From contig NC_018017.1 in the NCBI RefSeq assembly GCF_000243155.2, forward strand, positions 3,782,001-3,846,000: 64,000 nucleotides of DNA, written 5' to 3'. This stretch comes from Desulfitobacterium dehalogenans ATCC 51507 (GTDB lineage Bacteria; Bacillota; Desulfitobacteriia; Desulfitobacteriales; Desulfitobacteriaceae). Shown here piece after piece: positions 12,732 to 57,441 of this stretch (position 1 is the stretch's first letter; each line of letters opens with the position of its first letter). The position numbers and the translations under genes are program-made. Below the pieces are notes generated by a model that saw nothing but the letters and a program-made list of their open reading frames with translations, was not told the DNA's origin and made no database searches.

Positions 12732-13538
12732 TTAAGATTTGTAGGGAAACCTCACGAAGAATGCGGTTCCATTTTCGCCTGTTTGAACATCAATACTTCC
12801 CCGATGCTTAGCCACAATATGCAGACACACAGAAAGGCCAAGTCCTGTCCCATTGTCCTTCGTCGTTAAAAAAGGAGTCCCCAATTTCTCTAGAATATAG
12901 GGCGGTATTCCTTCCCCTTGATCCTGAACAGCCAAAACAACCTGCTTATCCGCGTAAAAGGTGCGAATCGTGAGTACTCCTCCCACAGCCATAGCTTCCA
13001 AGCCATTACGCACCAAGTTCATAACCATTTGTCGAATTTCCTTCTCATTGAGTTCAAGATCAGGAATCTCTTCCAACTCTATTAAAATTCGTTTACCCAG
13101 TTCACTGGCGTAAGCCCGCAGCAAGGGCAGAATGGATCGAATGATATCATTCAGGTTACAATGGGCTGGATCGCCTCCGCCCAACCGCCCAAAGGCCAGG
13201 AACTCATTCATCATTGAATCCACCCGGTCCACCTCAGAAATCATCATATCAAGATATTCCGTATAGCGGAATAGTTCATTTTTCCCCCTTAGAATCTGCA
13301 AAAAACCTTTAACTACGCTTATGGGGTTACGTATCTCATGACCTAAGCTGGCCGCCAGCTGACCCACTATATGCAGTTCTTCCATTCTTTTCATCGTTTC
13401 ACTGATAAACTTTTGTTCAGTATTATCCTGGGTCACCATAATGATACTCTCGGCATCTTTACTCCAATTTAGCCCTCGACTGTCTTCGACATGGATTACC
13501 CCACTATCCACATGATCAAGATTTTTTTGGCACAACAT
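12732..13538 (-). CDS. Sensor histidine kinase (PAS-less, cytoplasmic)
   Basis: 268 residues from the ATG at 13538, chosen because AAAGAGGTG lies seven bases upstream; the frame is open to 13622 but without a comparable site. A short N-terminal region (about 1-55) precedes a HisKA domain with the phospho-acceptor in ASLGHEIRNPISVVKGFLQ, and an HATPase_c domain with the N box MNLVRNGLEAM, G1 VQDQGEGIP, F box and G2 GTGLGLSVC. This is the layout of KinA/KinB-like sporulation kinases or NtrB-type kinases. No response regulator is adjacent and no membrane span is visible, so it is an orphan kinase. Its function cannot be inferred further. Confidence 0.88.
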   Translation of the reverse strand: MLCQKNLDHVDSGVIHVEDSRGLNWSKDAESIIMVTQDNTEQKFISETMKRMEELHIVGQLAASLGHEIRNPISVVKGFLQILRGKNELFRYTEYLDMMISEVDRVDSMMNEFLAFGRLGGGDPAHCNLNDIIRSILPLLRAYASELGKRILIELEEIPDLELNEKEIRQMVMNLVRNGLEAMAVGGVLTIRTFYADKQVVLAVQDQGEGIPPYILEKLGTPFLTTKDNGTGLGLSVCLHIVAKHRGSIDVQTGENGTAFFVRFPYKS

Positions 13539-13647
13539 AAACACACCTCTTTTTAATAATGCCTTTTTCATCAGTTGAGGAATTAAAATTTCCACAACTG
13601 GTGTATATCTATGGCAGATCATCTGGATTTATGACTTTATTATGAAG

Positions 13648-13686
13648 AAAAATAGCACTTCGGCAGAAATCCGAGGCGCTATTTTT
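13648..13686. terminator. Terminator-like hairpin between two divergent genes
   Basis: AAAAATAGC pairs with GCTATTTTT; inside, a CTTCGG/CCGAGG stem surrounds a short loop. T-runs lie on both sides. It sits between the start of the minus-strand kinase and the plus-strand ferredoxin gene, where no annotated transcript ends. Confidence 0.5.
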
Positions 13687-13863
13687 ATCTATTGAATATT
13701 AAATTTTATCCACTTTATTTGATTTATGACTTTCCGCAAGGCAAACTTCTTGTCATAAGAGCCGTCAAAAAGGACAGGCAGTTTTTAAATTTTTCCTTGT
13801 AATATTGCCTGAAGTATGATAAAAAGTAAACAATGATAATATATACCTATAGGGGGTATCTGT

Positions 13864-14934: not shown

Positions 14935-15658
14935 GTCAAAAAGAGAAACGATCTTGAGACAAAGCTTGATTAACCGCTTTGTCCACTGGACAACTGCTCT
15001 TGCAATCTTCTTGCTGATTCTGACAGGCTTTGGTCAAATGCCTCTCTATAACCGCTATAATGTCACGAAGCTTCCCGGAGCAGAATGGCTGGGTGACTAC
15101 TTCATTACCATCAGCCTTCACTACCTGGCAGCTGTTCTCCTTATCTTTGTCGTCTTTTTCCACATCGTTAATGCCTTTATTCGTAAGCAATTCGATATCT
15201 TCCCCCGCCGTGGTGATATCAAGGAATCCTACCTGATCATTAAAGCCATGTTTACCAAAGGCCAGGAACCTCCTTCCGACAAATACCTGGCCGAACAGAG
15301 ATTAGCCTACTTTTTTATTGGTTTTAATGTACTCTTGCTCATCATCACCGGCTTGATTAAGATGTATAAAAATGTTCCGGGTGTAGATCTGCCTCATTCC
15401 TTTCTTTTTTGGAATACCATGCTGCACAATATTGGCACCGTATTGCTTATCCTTGGTATAATCGGTCACCTAGCCGCCTTTATATTTAAGGAAAATCGCG
15501 CCCTCCTTCCTGGAATGTTCACAGGCTATATCGACCGCGGCTACGCGAAACACCGCCATGTCCTGTGGTATAGAAAGCTTGAAGCAGGGTCCCATGAATC
15601 AGAGGGACATCACAGCGAGGAACAGCATAGGGATGGAACCATCCATCCGGGCTGTTGA
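14915..15658 (+). CDS. Membrane cytochrome b subunit, formate dehydrogenase gamma-like
   Basis: 247 residues with four predicted membrane helices: near 22-42 (FVHWTTALAIFLLILTGF), 71-95, 135-160 and 175-200. Histidines in or near these helices (FVHW, LHYL, FFHIV, LHNI, GHL) are candidate haem b ligands, as in FdnI and B-type cytochromes of hydrogenases. The family transfers electrons from the Fe-S subunit across the membrane to quinone. The ATG at 14915 follows GGAGAGGAGG and overlaps the end of the ferredoxin gene by 20 bases, so translation is probably coupled. The C-terminal tail is rich in His, Glu and Ser. Confidence 0.9.
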   Translation: MTTTTRKSKRETILRQSLINRFVHWTTALAIFLLILTGFGQMPLYNRYNVTKLPGAEWLGDYFITISLHYLAAVLLIFVVFFHIVNAFIRKQFDIFPRRGDIKESYLIIKAMFTKGQEPPSDKYLAEQRLAYFFIGFNVLLLIITGLIKMYKNVPGVDLPHSFLFWNTMLHNIGTVLLILGIIGHLAAFIFKENRALLPGMFTGYIDRGYAKHRHVLWYRKLEAGSHESEGHHSEEQHRDGTIHPGC

Positions 15659-15761
15659 CCTGATCCCCATGCCGCGGATGACGCTGGCAAAGGATGAAGG
15701 AGCTTGTCTGGGTCGTGTAGCTTATCCCACACAGCGCCGCTTCAGCCCGAAAGGCAGCCCA
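15659..15761. other. Intergenic stretch, no gene seen
   Basis: Non-coding sequence after the cytochrome b stop. It has short self-complementary pieces (GTGT..ACAC, GGCTTCAGCC-like) and may be the 5' part of the structured element that follows. No start codon with a ribosome site was found. Confidence 0.4.
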
Positions 15762-16048
15762 AGGATTTTGCTTTAAGGCAGAGAACGGATTCTAAGCGAG
15801 CAGGTAAGCAATCTTTGCGAAAAGACTGCAGCGGAGTCGGGTTGGAAACAGGACGTTTCCAACCGCCCATTGAGCAGGAGCGATTTGGGCACGAAAGCCG
15901 GATGAGGGTTTCGCCCAAGCCGCCATGCCATAGAAAGCTGCTTAGCGGCGCAGGTGGACTCGACGCAGCGGAGGTCTTGAGCGATTAGATTGCTCCGCGC
16001 AGCTTATGGAGTGAACGCCGAAAGCAAAATCCTGGAGAATCTCTCCAG
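15762..16048. ncRNA. Candidate structured RNA or small non-coding repeat element
   Basis: Between convergent genes lies a GC-rich stretch with no convincing gene but nested inverted repeats. AGGATTTTGCTTT at 15762-15774 pairs perfectly with AAAGCAAAATCCT at 16021-16033 (13 bp). Inside are a perfect 10-bp hairpin, GGTTGGAAAC/GTTTCCAACC with loop AGGAC (15840-15864); TTGGGC-ac-GAAA paired with TTTC-GCCCAA round a 12-base loop (15885-15918); and GCGGAG/CTCCGC enclosing GAGC/GCTC (about 15968-15997). Just outside is CTGGAGA/TCTCCAG (16032-16048). The architecture suggests a folded RNA of about 270 nt closed by a long-range stem, or a MITE-like element with terminal inverted repeats. The strand is undecided and I know no matching family. 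Confidence 0.5.
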
Positions 16049-16101
16049 ATAGCCGGCAATGCTCTCTTTTCGACTCCAATAATGCTGAAAAAAATTAAGT
16101 G

Positions 16102-16132
16102 GAATGCCCCAGGAGCAAATCCTGGGGCATTC
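16102..16132 (-). terminator. Terminator of the glutamate-mutase/fumarase operon
   Basis: Perfect 13-bp stem GAATGCCCCAGGA/TCCTGGGGCATTC with a five-base loop. Read on the minus strand it is followed by CACTTAATTTTTTTC. It lies 27 bases after the fumarase beta stop. Confidence 0.92.
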
Positions 16133-16158
16133 ATATTTCCCACTTATTCAAACTCAAC

Positions 16159-16722
16159 TTACTCTTTTCGATACTGTGCCTTTCCAGACTCGTAAAGATT
16201 ATTGCCATCCTTATCAATGACCACCATCACCGGGAAATCCTTGACCACCAGCCTGCGGACGGCCTCCGTTCCCAGTTCCGGATAAGCGATAACTTCTGCC
16301 GATACAATTCGTTTCGCTAACAAAGCCCCTGACCCGCCGATGGCTCCGAAATAAACCGCTCCATGCTTCCTCATGGCCTCAATAACTTCCTCAGAGCGCA
16401 ATCCCTTGCCAATCATGCCGGTCAGTCCTCGTTCAATCAGCTTAGGGGAGTAAGCATCCATCCGGCCACTGGTGGTGGGACCTGCCGAACCAATGACTTG
16501 ACCCGGTTTAGGTGGAGTGGGCCCCACAAAATAGAGGACCTGATTGCGTACGTCAAAGGGGAGTTCCTCTCCTCGGGATAAAGCCTCCACCATCTTTTTG
16601 TGGGCTGCGTCACGACCGGTATAGATTATACCGCTAAGCAGCAAACTATCACCCACTTTGAGTTGAGCCACTTTATCCTGGGTTAGTGGAAGTTCTAAAT
16701 AAAGTGTTTCACTCATTTTCAT
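16159..16722 (-). CDS. fumB: Class I fumarase / mesaconase, beta subunit (C-terminal domain)
   Basis: 187 residues, matching the beta domain of two-subunit class I hydro-lyases (fumarase, L-tartrate dehydratase, mesaconase). Signatures: SGIIYTGRDAAHKKMVE (about 30-46), YFVGPTPPKPGQVIGSAGPTTSGRMD (about 68-93), and the GAIGGSGALL segment near 126. It starts 4 bases inside the end of the alpha gene (ATGA overlap), so the two are translationally coupled. Because the operon makes mesaconate from glutamate, mesaconate to (S)-citramalate hydration is a likely activity, besides fumarate to malate; sequence alone does not separate them. Confidence 0.88.
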   Translation of the reverse strand: MKMSETLYLELPLTQDKVAQLKVGDSLLLSGIIYTGRDAAHKKMVEALSRGEELPFDVRNQVLYFVGPTPPKPGQVIGSAGPTTSGRMDAYSPKLIERGLTGMIGKGLRSEEVIEAMRKHGAVYFGAIGGSGALLAKRIVSAEVIAYPELGTEAVRRLVVKDFPVMVVIDKDGNNLYESGKAQYRKE

Positions 16723-46190: not shown

Positions 46191-47324
46191 TCATCTTTCC
46201 TGTAGTTTAGTCCAGATTTTTTGAAAAGCCACGGGTAAGGCGATTCTATCCAGTTCCTTTACATCCATCCAACACAAGCCATCTTCCTTCAGCTGGGAAT
46301 CCTTACCCGCCCTGACCTCTGATGACTTATCTATTACATCGTCAAGATCGAGAACCACCCAAACCATCTGCCAGCGTCGATGACTGAAGGTATGAACTAA
46401 AGGACCTTTCACGCTTGGGTTACGGCTAAGCAGTTCTTTGACGATCTCATCATAGGTTGGATCAGATATCTGATTTTTATAAAGTCCATACCATTCCTTA
46501 CCTTCTCTGAATTTTTCCAGTGAGGGTATCATCATCTCTTCTCCAGGGAACTCCCATAGATTGGCCAAAAGCCCTGTGGTGGGCCTCTTTTTCAGAAGAA
46601 CCTGCCCTCGGTGAAGAAGGATTAGGGTGGGACGAAAAGCTTCCGTAGGTTTCTCTTTGCTTTTTTTCACAGGGTACACTTGAGGGTCACCCAGGGCAAA
46701 GCTCTCACAATCCTCTTGGAGGGGACATTGCTCACATCGTGGATTCTTAGGAGTGCATACCGTTGCTCCCAACTCCATCATTCCTTGATTAAAATCTCCT
46801 GGACAATCTCCGGGTATCACTTCCTTAAGATATTCAAGAAAAAAGCGCCTTGACCTAGCCTTCTCCACATCTTCCTCCCAACGGAGAATGCGGCTCAGCA
46901 CTCGCTTTACATTCCCATCCATCACCGGAACCCGCTCTTCATAAGCAATGCTGGCAATGGCTGCCGCGGTATACTCACCTACACCTTTAATCGTGAGGAG
47001 CGCATCATAGTTCTCGGGCATTCTTCCCTCCGTCATTTGCACCACATAGCGGGCGCCCTCCCACAAGCGTCTGGCCCGTGAATAATACCCCAAACCCCGC
47101 CATAGCTCCAGCACCTCCTCCTGCTCTGCTTCAGCCAGAGCAAAAAGATCGGGAAACCGTTTCATAAACCGTAAGTAGTATGGAATAACTGTAATTACCT
47201 GAGTCTGCTGGAGCATTACCTCAGATACCCAAATAGCATAGGGCTCTTTTGTCTTCCGCCAAGGCAAATCCCTCTTGACTTGATTGAACCATTGGATCAG
47301 CTTTGAAGAGTTTATTCCACTCAC
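46191..47324 (-). CDS. mutY: A/G-specific adenine glycosylase
   Basis: 377 residues. It removes adenine mispaired with 8-oxoguanine. The HhH-GPD domain (about 1-210) includes SEVMLQQTQV, WRGLGYYSRARRL, TIKGVGEYTAAAIASIAYEERVPVMDGNVKRV with the catalytic Asp in VMDGNV, and the [4Fe-4S] loop C-x6-C-x2-C-x5-C (CTPKNPRCEQCPLQEDC, near 192-208). A C-terminal NUDIX-like domain (about 225-370: LILLHRGQVLLKKRP, GLLANLWEFPGEE) recognises oxoG. GTG start after GAGGGG. Confidence 0.97.
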   Translation of the reverse strand: MSGINSSKLIQWFNQVKRDLPWRKTKEPYAIWVSEVMLQQTQVITVIPYYLRFMKRFPDLFALAEAEQEEVLELWRGLGYYSRARRLWEGARYVVQMTEGRMPENYDALLTIKGVGEYTAAAIASIAYEERVPVMDGNVKRVLSRILRWEEDVEKARSRRFFLEYLKEVIPGDCPGDFNQGMMELGATVCTPKNPRCEQCPLQEDCESFALGDPQVYPVKKSKEKPTEAFRPTLILLHRGQVLLKKRPTTGLLANLWEFPGEEMMIPSLEKFREGKEWYGLYKNQISDPTYDEIVKELLSRNPSVKGPLVHTFSHRRWQMVWVVLDLDDVIDKSSEVRAGKDSQLKEDGLCWMDVKELDRIALPVAFQKIWTKLQER

Positions 47325-47466
47325 TCTATCCCCTCTTCTTTGTCATTCTATTTTTAAAGAAAACCCGGCTTCGCCGTGCTTTTTAAACATGCATCCAGAA
47401 AGGCGAAGTCGTTGGTTGCACTTATGCTGGAGGAAAGTATACAACGAAGTTATACTTTCTGACAGT
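47325..47466. other. Intergenic, nothing recognised
   Basis: Upstream of mutY. It contains a small CGGC/GCCG hairpin at about 47366-47376 followed on the minus strand by TTTTC, too weak to call, and no gene with a ribosome site. Confidence 0.4.
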
Positions 47467-47477
47467 ACAAAAAGAAA

Positions 47478-47499
47478 TCCCGAGGGTTAACCCCCGGGA
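47478..47499 (-). terminator. Second terminator after the D-amino-acid transaminase gene
   Basis: A nearly self-complementary hairpin built on GGGTTAACCC with outer TCCCG/CGGGA pairs, followed on the minus strand by TTTCTTTTTG. Confidence 0.65.
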
Positions 47500-47522
47500 C
47501 CTAGTCTATAGCTTGTTTGATG

Positions 47523-47543
47523 AAAAAACAACCCTAAAGGTTG
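47523..47543 (-). terminator. Terminator after the D-amino-acid transaminase gene
   Basis: CAACC/GGTTG five-base stem; the minus strand runs GGTTGTTTTTTC. Short stem but a perfect T-run. Confidence 0.65.
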
Positions 47544-55793: not shown

Positions 55794-57290
55794 TTGAAAA
55801 CCAAGAAATATGTAGTATTAGCCCTGCTGTTTATCAGCCTCACCCTGGCCATTACTTTCGGTATTAACTTTATGCTCTATGCCAAGGATGATCACCGTTT
55901 TAGTGAAGGAATCACTATCTCAGGGATCGACGTGGGCAACCTCACCAAAGAACAGGCCCAGAACAAGATCAATGATACTGTCGAAAGGTGGTTAGGAGAA
56001 CCCTTAGAGTTCCAAGTAGGTGGAGAAGTCACTTCCCTTCCCCTGGCCACTCTGAACCCTAAGGTAGATCTGGACACTCCACTTAATGAAGCCTACAAGA
56101 TTGGTCGAAAAGCTTCCCTTTTTGCCAGAACTCAAAAGGTAAACGCTGCTCAGGGTTCCCGCTTTGAACTGGGGCTGCAATGGGATGAGCAAACCCTCTC
56201 TGAAACCATCTCCGGAAGCCTTGCCGTATTCAATAAAGAACCCGTGGACGCTTCCTTTAGAATTAACGAAAAAAATCTCATGGAGATTCAGCCCGAGCAG
56301 CCAGGACAGGCCGTCCAAACAGATGTCATCTTAAACCAGATTAAAGAGCTGGAAATCTTGCAAGATCCCGCACCTATCAAAGTAGAACTTCAAGAAGTGG
56401 CCCCTGCCCTCAGGGCAGCGGATCTGGAAGCTAACAAAATCGATGGGCTTATTGCCAGCCATACTACCTGGTTTGATGCCTCCAATACCGAGCGTACCGC
56501 CAATGTTCGTCTTGCTGCTGAGGCTTTGGATGGAGCCCTTATAGAACCCGGGGAAATCATATCCTTTAACGAAATCGTCGGAGAACGAACCGGGGATAAA
56601 GGCTATCAGGACGCCCTTATCGTGGTCAACGGTGAATTCGTCCCCGGCCTGGGGGGCGGCATCTGCCAAGTCTCCAGCACTCTCTATAATACTGGACTTT
56701 TAGCCAATCTGAAGATCGAAGAAAGAGTCAACCATGGTTTAGCTGTGGCTTATGTTCCCCTTGGCCAGGATGCCACCGTAGTCTATGGGGCCATAGATCT
56801 AAAGATGAGGAATAATACCGGCGGATATCTCCTCCTCCGAACCAAACTGACCAACGGCTCCGTGACCATTGAGTTCTATGGTAAAAAAACCTCAGGGCAG
56901 GAAGTCGTCATCACCAATCAAGTGGAAAAAGTGATTCCCTTTGAAACCGAAATTATCCAGGACCCGACTCTGGCCCCCGGAACCCAAATCATCAAGCAAA
57001 ACGGCCAGAATGGCTATATCGCTACTGCTACTCGCACGGTCAAGGTCAACGGACAAGTAGTGGAGACCCAAAGCCTGGGCAAAAGTTCCTATATCCCCTC
57101 CAACCAGATCATCGTCAAAGGACCGGCACTGCCTGTACAGCCTAAACCAGACCCTAAACCAGACCCTAAACCGGACCCAACCCCGGAGCAGCCGGCACCT
57201 GAGACTCCGCAGGGAACGGAAACACCTCCCCAACCCGAACCCCATGAACCTGAAAGTGGATCAGGAACTGAAGCGGACGCGGAAGTATAA
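55794..57290 (+). CDS. VanW/G5-domain cell wall protein
   Basis: 498 residues, TTG start nine bases after GGGGG. TM near 5-28, then repeats of a peptidoglycan-binding PG_4-type domain (about 38-210), a VanW domain (about 220-355) with NEIVGERTGDKGYQDALIVVNGEFVPGLGGGICQVSSTLYN, a G5 domain (about 375-445) and a Pro-rich tail with three KPDP units (12-bp DNA repeats, 57141-57176) ending in acidic residues. The family, YoaR-like, is wall-associated in Firmicutes; VanW function is unknown. Its own promoter and terminator flank it. Confidence 0.92.
   Translation: MKTKKYVVLALLFISLTLAITFGINFMLYAKDDHRFSEGITISGIDVGNLTKEQAQNKINDTVERWLGEPLEFQVGGEVTSLPLATLNPKVDLDTPLNEAYKIGRKASLFARTQKVNAAQGSRFELGLQWDEQTLSETISGSLAVFNKEPVDASFRINEKNLMEIQPEQPGQAVQTDVILNQIKELEILQDPAPIKVELQEVAPALRAADLEANKIDGLIASHTTWFDASNTERTANVRLAAEALDGALIEPGEIISFNEIVGERTGDKGYQDALIVVNGEFVPGLGGGICQVSSTLYNTGLLANLKIEERVNHGLAVAYVPLGQDATVVYGAIDLKMRNNTGGYLLLRTKLTNGSVTIEFYGKKTSGQEVVITNQVEKVIPFETEIIQDPTLAPGTQIIKQNGQNGYIATATRTVKVNGQVVETQSLGKSSYIPSNQIIVKGPALPVQPKPDPKPDPKPDPTPEQPAPETPQGTETPPQPEPHEPESGSGTEADAEV
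57141..57176 (+). repeat. Three tandem 12-bp repeats coding KPDP
   Basis: CCTAAACCAGAC occurs three times head to tail, the third with one change. It encodes the Pro-rich spacer of the VanW/G5 protein and is liable to slippage. Confidence 0.8.
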
Positions 57291-57310
57291 TATACTATAA
57301 AGCCAATATT

Positions 57311-57360
57311 TTAAAAGGAAAGAATCCGATACACTAGGTCGTCGGATTCTTTCCTTTTAA
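57311..57360 (+). terminator. Terminator after the VanW gene
   Basis: Perfect 19-bp stem: TTAAAAGGAAAGAATCCGA against its inverse copy TCGGATTCTTTCCTTTTAA, 12-base loop; T-rich on both sides, so it also suits the minus-strand xre gene. Confidence 0.9.
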
Positions 57361-57441
57361 TCTTATTTTTCATTTTAAAATTGGATACATTATTGCTGAT
57401 TTAAATTGATATTACAATGCTTACGGCATTCTGTAACTTCA

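Follow-up and report, generated by a model that had tools for sequence, protein, structure and literature searches.

The intergenic segment at 15762-16048 of the window, the whole 64,000-nucleotide stretch of Desulfitobacterium dehalogenans DNA analysed here, holds a copy of a repeat family that is undescribed, non-coding, dispersed and widespread in Bacillota, and it is virtually certain that this family is mobile and selected for its structure. The preliminary description, which had proposed an undescribed structured RNA or a MITE, was right in substance: the element is a dispersed non-coding mobile repeat with compensated helices that is absent from Rfam. The most specific clue to the role of the family is its CsrA-type apical loops, and the best explanation, put forward tentatively, is a non-autonomous BIME-like mobile repeat whose sense transcript would be a two-site CsrA-binding RNA.

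The window copy and its relatives

A covariance model of the family, R1 (216 positions, 70 pairs), recognises exactly one copy in the window, at 15761-16038. As had been noted before, the flanking genes are convergent, a plus strand ORF ending at 15658 (read by eye as a cytochrome b subunit) and a minus strand ORF at 16159-16722 (read by eye as a fumarase-type subunit). The locus is composed of the following parts:

15669-15698, plus strand: linker and remnant of the 5' end, ATGCCGCGGATGACGCTGGCAAAGGATGAA, also found in genome G002, which lacks the core; akin to the 5' end conserved in units, GCGGCACCAKCAGARGATGAAAA
about 15699-16090, plus strand: unit that D. dehalogenans has and G002 lacks at the syntenic place (comparison with G002:C20:14900-15700; ends ambiguous by several bases)
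15761-16038, plus strand (sense, the strand with GGA in the apical loops): structured core, R1 match of 192.5 bits, E 1.5e-47
15762-15774, plus strand: 5' arm of the closing helix, a perfect 13-bp inverted repeat, compensated between lineages
15840-15864, plus strand: apical hairpin 1, GGTTGGAAAC-AGGAC-GTTTCCAACC, with a CsrA-like CAGGACG loop, from fold and loop alignment
15866-15889, plus strand: apical hairpin 2 with AGGA loop (GAGC-AGGA-GCGA inside CCCA/TGGG), from fold and loop alignment
15891-15955, plus strand: optional module C, about 65 nt with two hairpins, from sequence comparison of copies
16021-16033, plus strand: 3' arm of the closing helix, a perfect 13-bp inverted repeat, compensated between lineages
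16102-16132, no strand assigned: terminator-like hairpin belonging to the two convergent genes, not part of the unit and also in G002

The two closing arms are separated by 246 nt, and apical hairpin 1 consists of a perfect 10-bp stem (15840-15849/15855-15864) with a five-base loop; both had been picked out beforehand, and the other features named for the segment are likewise present in the sequence. When both strands of 15762-16048 were folded, as had been proposed, the plus strand reached -122.2 kcal/mol (z -6.2; none of 200 dinucleotide-shuffled sequences folded as well) and the minus strand -111 kcal/mol (z -5.8). The suspected excess of structure is real, because the 142 other window stretches of equal length, one of them overlapping the element, have a mean z of -0.46 (sd 1.4); the element lies at the low extreme of this distribution with only one unrelated stretch near it (13501-13787, z -6.3). 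This stretch and two others that fold strongly, 47251-47537 (z -5.3) and 57151-57437 (z -4.7), look like ordinary long terminator-type hairpins. A consensus scan of 15400-16400 yielded no promoter-like site, and the short ORFs inside the segment show no conservation as coding frames. A decayed gene was rejected, as there is no conserved frame and covariation explains the conservation.

Blastn with the segment finds matches at about 40 places in the same genome, and an R1 search raises this to about 77 copies; a few additional R1 rows are the same places on the opposite strand. These dispersed copies rule out a riboswitch or UTR RNA confined to a single locus. In the class R1 matches 34 of 83 genomes, every one of them in the same family, and in a sample of the phylum 32 of 398 Bacillota genomes; the repeat is spread over many families of anaerobic Bacillota (Clostridia), including Moorella, Desulfofundulus and Desulfovirgula. 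No Rfam 15 family was matched at either gathering or permissive thresholds, which disposes of a known Rfam family. In the open-access literature no paper describing the repeat was found, and none relevant on Desulfitobacterium or Moorella repeats. Plasmids, phages and viral contigs gave no match, the viral scan covering one exact pattern only, and spread by such carriers was rejected on this basis.

Compensatory change and modular architecture

The helices are maintained by abundant compensatory change within and between genomes, across Bacillota. An alignment of 23 copies of the short form, drawn from several genera, has 94.9% of its cells paired and two-sided changes at 34 of 70 pairs, while sliding the partners by 1-3 columns brings pairing down to 31-41%. 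Copies within one genome have exchanged entire helices with compensation, such as GTCGGG/CCCGAC vs GAAAGG/CCTTTC or AAGCAATCT/AGATTGCT vs AACAAAACT/AGTTTTGT. Moreover, 16 distant copies (Moorella, Desulfofundulus, Desulfovirgula and others), aligned from sequence alone and folded independently of the R1 model, arrive at the same architecture, and 39 of their 66 pairs show compensation. The closing helix itself turns over between lineages with compensation, helices and loops further inside are conserved across several classes, and the internal-loop motifs GAGCGA, GCGGAG and TGAGCG show roughly the same degree of conservation as the tip loops. The preliminary description had asked for covariation in relatives and had regarded its absence, a decayed gene, or a strain-unique segment devoid of compensation as grounds for giving up the idea; what was found is none of these.

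Each unit has a core of 215-310 nt with 66-70 pairs in many helices, which together form one long closed helix topped by two apical hairpins. The part shared by copies runs from the closing stem AAGGATTTTG to CAAAATCCTGGAGA, and copies differ from each other by whole helices, for example by the hairpin insert AACAAGTGCGAAAGCAGTGCTTTCGAG; module C is found in about half of the first 40 copies and is missing from the rest. Reduced copies also occur, one of 127 nt lacking the apical half and one of 35 nt that retains little beyond the closing stem. Copies of this kind, cut to the lower half of the fold or nearly to the closing stem, as well as B1/B2 hybrids, were seen at L110:760-884, L122:842-876 and L225. 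They suggest that deletion and recombination have followed the boundaries of helices. Module C was also encountered alone inside a different dispersed repeat in the related genomes G020, G021 and G023 (L077, L085-L090), preceded by GTACGAAAGCATCCAGTG and followed by TGCTTTCGCCGAACCG; the Desulfosporosinus repeat that hosts it (L085-L090) is itself multi-copy and structured and matches no Rfam family. Helical sub-modules thus appear to be shared between repeat families. The BOX elements of Streptococcus are modular stem-loop repeats as well, with sub-units present or absent between copies as here; in the present family, however, the modules are helices within one closed fold, and the likeness is one of description.

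In the D. dehalogenans genome a second structured domain, B1, usually lies upstream of the core and is itself repeated. R1 detects B1 on the strand opposite to the core, which makes a divergent inverted pair the usual composite. Related genera show this minus-then-plus order again, beside some tandems on one strand and some single copies; the copy in the window is a solitary B2 whose ends have decayed. Unit ends are conserved as GCGGCACCAKCAGARGATGAAAA on the 5' side and TTTTTCAGGGTAG on the 3' side, are recognisable in both Desulfitobacterium and Moorella, and are oriented alike in distant genera. By pairing with each other, TGAAAA and TTTTCA could lengthen the closing helix.

Placement in genomes and signs of mobility

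Between matched flanks the window locus measures 47 bp in G002 vs 454 bp here. A pristine empty site was rejected for this locus, as G002 keeps the linker remnant, and loss there is consequently as possible as gain here. The gap between proB and proA (genes named by eye) is a cleaner pair of empty and occupied sites: about 0.8 kb of B1-B2 in D. dehalogenans, 27 bp between matched flanks in G002 and 11 bp in G003. Neither of these two occupied/empty pairs compared between species revealed a target-site duplication, the ends being ambiguous.

Flanking genes, taken as mechanically called long ORFs, place 28 of the D. dehalogenans loci between co-directional genes (12 sense, 16 antisense), 10 between convergent and 2 between divergent ones; the distant loci comprise 10 sense, 8 antisense, 3 convergent and 0 divergent. 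Divergent gaps hold 2 of 40 loci in this genome and 0 of 26 distant ones. Placement is BIME-like, without strand preference and with avoidance of divergent gaps, and the convergent location of the window copy is only one among several contexts.

In habit the family is REP/BIME-like: it has dozens of extragenic hairpin-forming copies and no protein of its own, it forms alternating or inverted pairs with linkers, and it stays out of divergent gaps. It is unlike REP/BIME in size and in depth of conservation, as the repeat core of 215-310 nt with nested helices contrasts with a REP unit that a passage of PMC3733652 gives as a short palindrome of 20-40 bp, and the fold of the repeat is conserved over several classes. 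Furthermore, a RAYT/Y1 enzyme is missing in some carriers; the Y1 transposase (PF01797) is absent from G003 and G009. The sole Y1 (IS200-like) genes of D. dehalogenans, G000:C1 3340137-3340490 and 3415479-3415831, are interrupted or truncated. No mobilising enzyme was found, and inspection by eye of solo 5' ends in this genome, which was not exhaustive, revealed no transposase-like ORF beside them that would mark an autonomous copy or parent transposon. HEARO and omega RNAs and IS200/IS605 derivatives are multi-copy structured sequences tied to mobility too, but the repeat has no Rfam match to these and the only adjacent IS605 (G008:C15) lies beside a unit, not inside it; with Y1 absent from two carriers, an element driven by IS200/IS605 or RAYT was rejected.

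CsrA-type tip loops and competing explanations

Among 37 non-redundant distant copies with a mean identity of 47%, the motif CA(N)GGANG occupies loop 1 in 32 and loop 2 in 30, counts to be read with the fact that GGA-containing rows served to define the sense set. Examples are CACAAGGATGTG, GGCATGGATGCC and GCCAAGGATGGC, and the stems that carry them covary. These loops match the CsrA consensus obtained by SELEX, RUACARGGAUGU, in which AC..GU supplies the closing pairs (PMC7652899), the stem-borne ANGGAX hexaloop (PMC4005645) and the further consensus (A/U)CANGGANG(U/A) (PMC6692469); on their stems they correspond to the high-affinity site of CsrA/RsmE. In Desulfitobacterium the loops are shortened to CAGGACG and GCAGGAGC, which is described as a weaker kind of site (PMC4005645), and the inverted partner B1 has no GGA loops. 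The genome of D. dehalogenans contains csrA, adjoining an ORF that by eye is FliW-like. In the phylum sample csrA was found in 32 of 32 carriers (one by a weak match) vs 253 of 366 non-carriers (Fisher 1.9e-5), and within the family the repeat occurs in 31 of 35 genomes with and 3 of 11 without csrA (2.3e-4), both tests ignoring phylogeny and assembly completeness. These last three genomes, in which csrA was not detected, still hold a few copies.

The strand with the GGA loops is probably the folded one. At paired positions G.T exceeds A.C by 41 to 8, and by 65 to 26 in distant copies, although part of this excess could stem from fitting to a plus strand model. G-U pairs make up about 2-3% of cells, which is low for an RNA.

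The repeat can be predicted, with due reserve, to be a ligand of CsrA. In this reading the functional strand of the core would be the one carrying GGA in both tip loops, and, when a unit is read through into RNA in the sense direction, the two adjacent CA(N)GGANG hairpins would bind CsrA. Copies would then serve as CsrA ligands or decoys distributed over the genome and may modulate the transcripts that contain them. Movement would depend on a trans-acting enzyme that works on the conserved ends, GCGGCACCAKCAGARGATGAAAA ... TTTTTCAGGGTAG. Such a module would resemble the small RNAs CsrB/CsrC and RsmX/Y/Z in presenting GGA in hairpin loops that match the CsrA/RsmE site; it differs from them in having two sites per core, many genomic copies in either orientation to genes, no recognised promoter of its own and no Csr/Rsm match in Rfam. 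Several observations count against a CsrA ligand, namely the absent sense bias relative to flanking genes (12/16 here, 10/8 in distant loci), the failure to recognise a conserved promoter, the few G-U pairs, the lack of GGA in B1, the shortened Desulfitobacterium loops, the copies in three genomes without detected csrA, an association with csrA uncorrected for phylogeny, and a sense set defined by GGA rows.

Some of the same observations favour the main rival, a giant REP/BIME-type element that acts only as DNA, folding as a single strand, for example at replication, with RNA playing no part; a transposase or other protein would read hairpins and ends, and the GGA loops would be recognition bases. 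This is a serious candidate, if a rather doubtful one. It accounts for the indifference to gene orientation, the avoided promoter gaps and the scarcity of G-U pairs; the inverted pairs are as a passage of PMC2817692 describes for BIMEs, the ends keep their sequence and orientation in distant genera, and the sense strand is stable when folded as DNA (z -6.2). Against it stand the close match of the loops to the CsrA consensus, the tracking of csrA by carriers, the far smaller size of REP units, and the Y1 transposases, which are absent or broken as described above. An RNA spread by mobility with another partner, either a ribosome-binding decoy that pairs its AGGA loops with the anti-Shine-Dalgarno or a protein scaffold engaged through the internal loops, is unlikely. 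AAGGA may well resemble a Shine-Dalgarno sequence and the conserved internal-loop motifs would suit a scaffold, but the closing frame C-A ... N-G, which is conserved in the loops, is not explained by AAGGA on its own, and the lack of sense bias counts here as well. Very improbable is an ordinary MITE derived by deletion from a DNA transposon, in which only the 13-bp terminal repeat matters and inner helices are incidental, even though terminal inverted repeat, dispersed copies, presence or absence of the insert between species, and hairpins gained and lost down to the minimal 35-nt copy all recall MITEs. Transposase-bound repeats keep their sequence, whereas this terminal repeat turns over with compensation; the interior of the fold, helices and loops alike, is conserved across several classes, and neither a target duplication (two site pairs, ends ambiguous) nor a parent transposon (solo ends, by eye, non-exhaustive) was seen.

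An abundant repeat whose structure is conserved over several classes of Bacillota has been missing from Rfam, and its copies, tens in each genome, allow selection on the fold to be traced. It also offers a specific connection between interspersed repeats and the regulator CsrA that can be put to the test. Should the fold act as single-stranded DNA, it would represent a REP-like system many times larger than the known ones. That the mobile family has seeded Bacillota genomes with dozens of predicted two-site CsrA-binding RNA modules is possible, with some doubt attached; if true, these would supply CsrA with an RNA ligand or antagonist scattered over the genome, in a phylum whose described antagonist is the protein FliW, and the family would be a selfish repeat linked to a global RNA regulator and inclined to disappear together with csrA.
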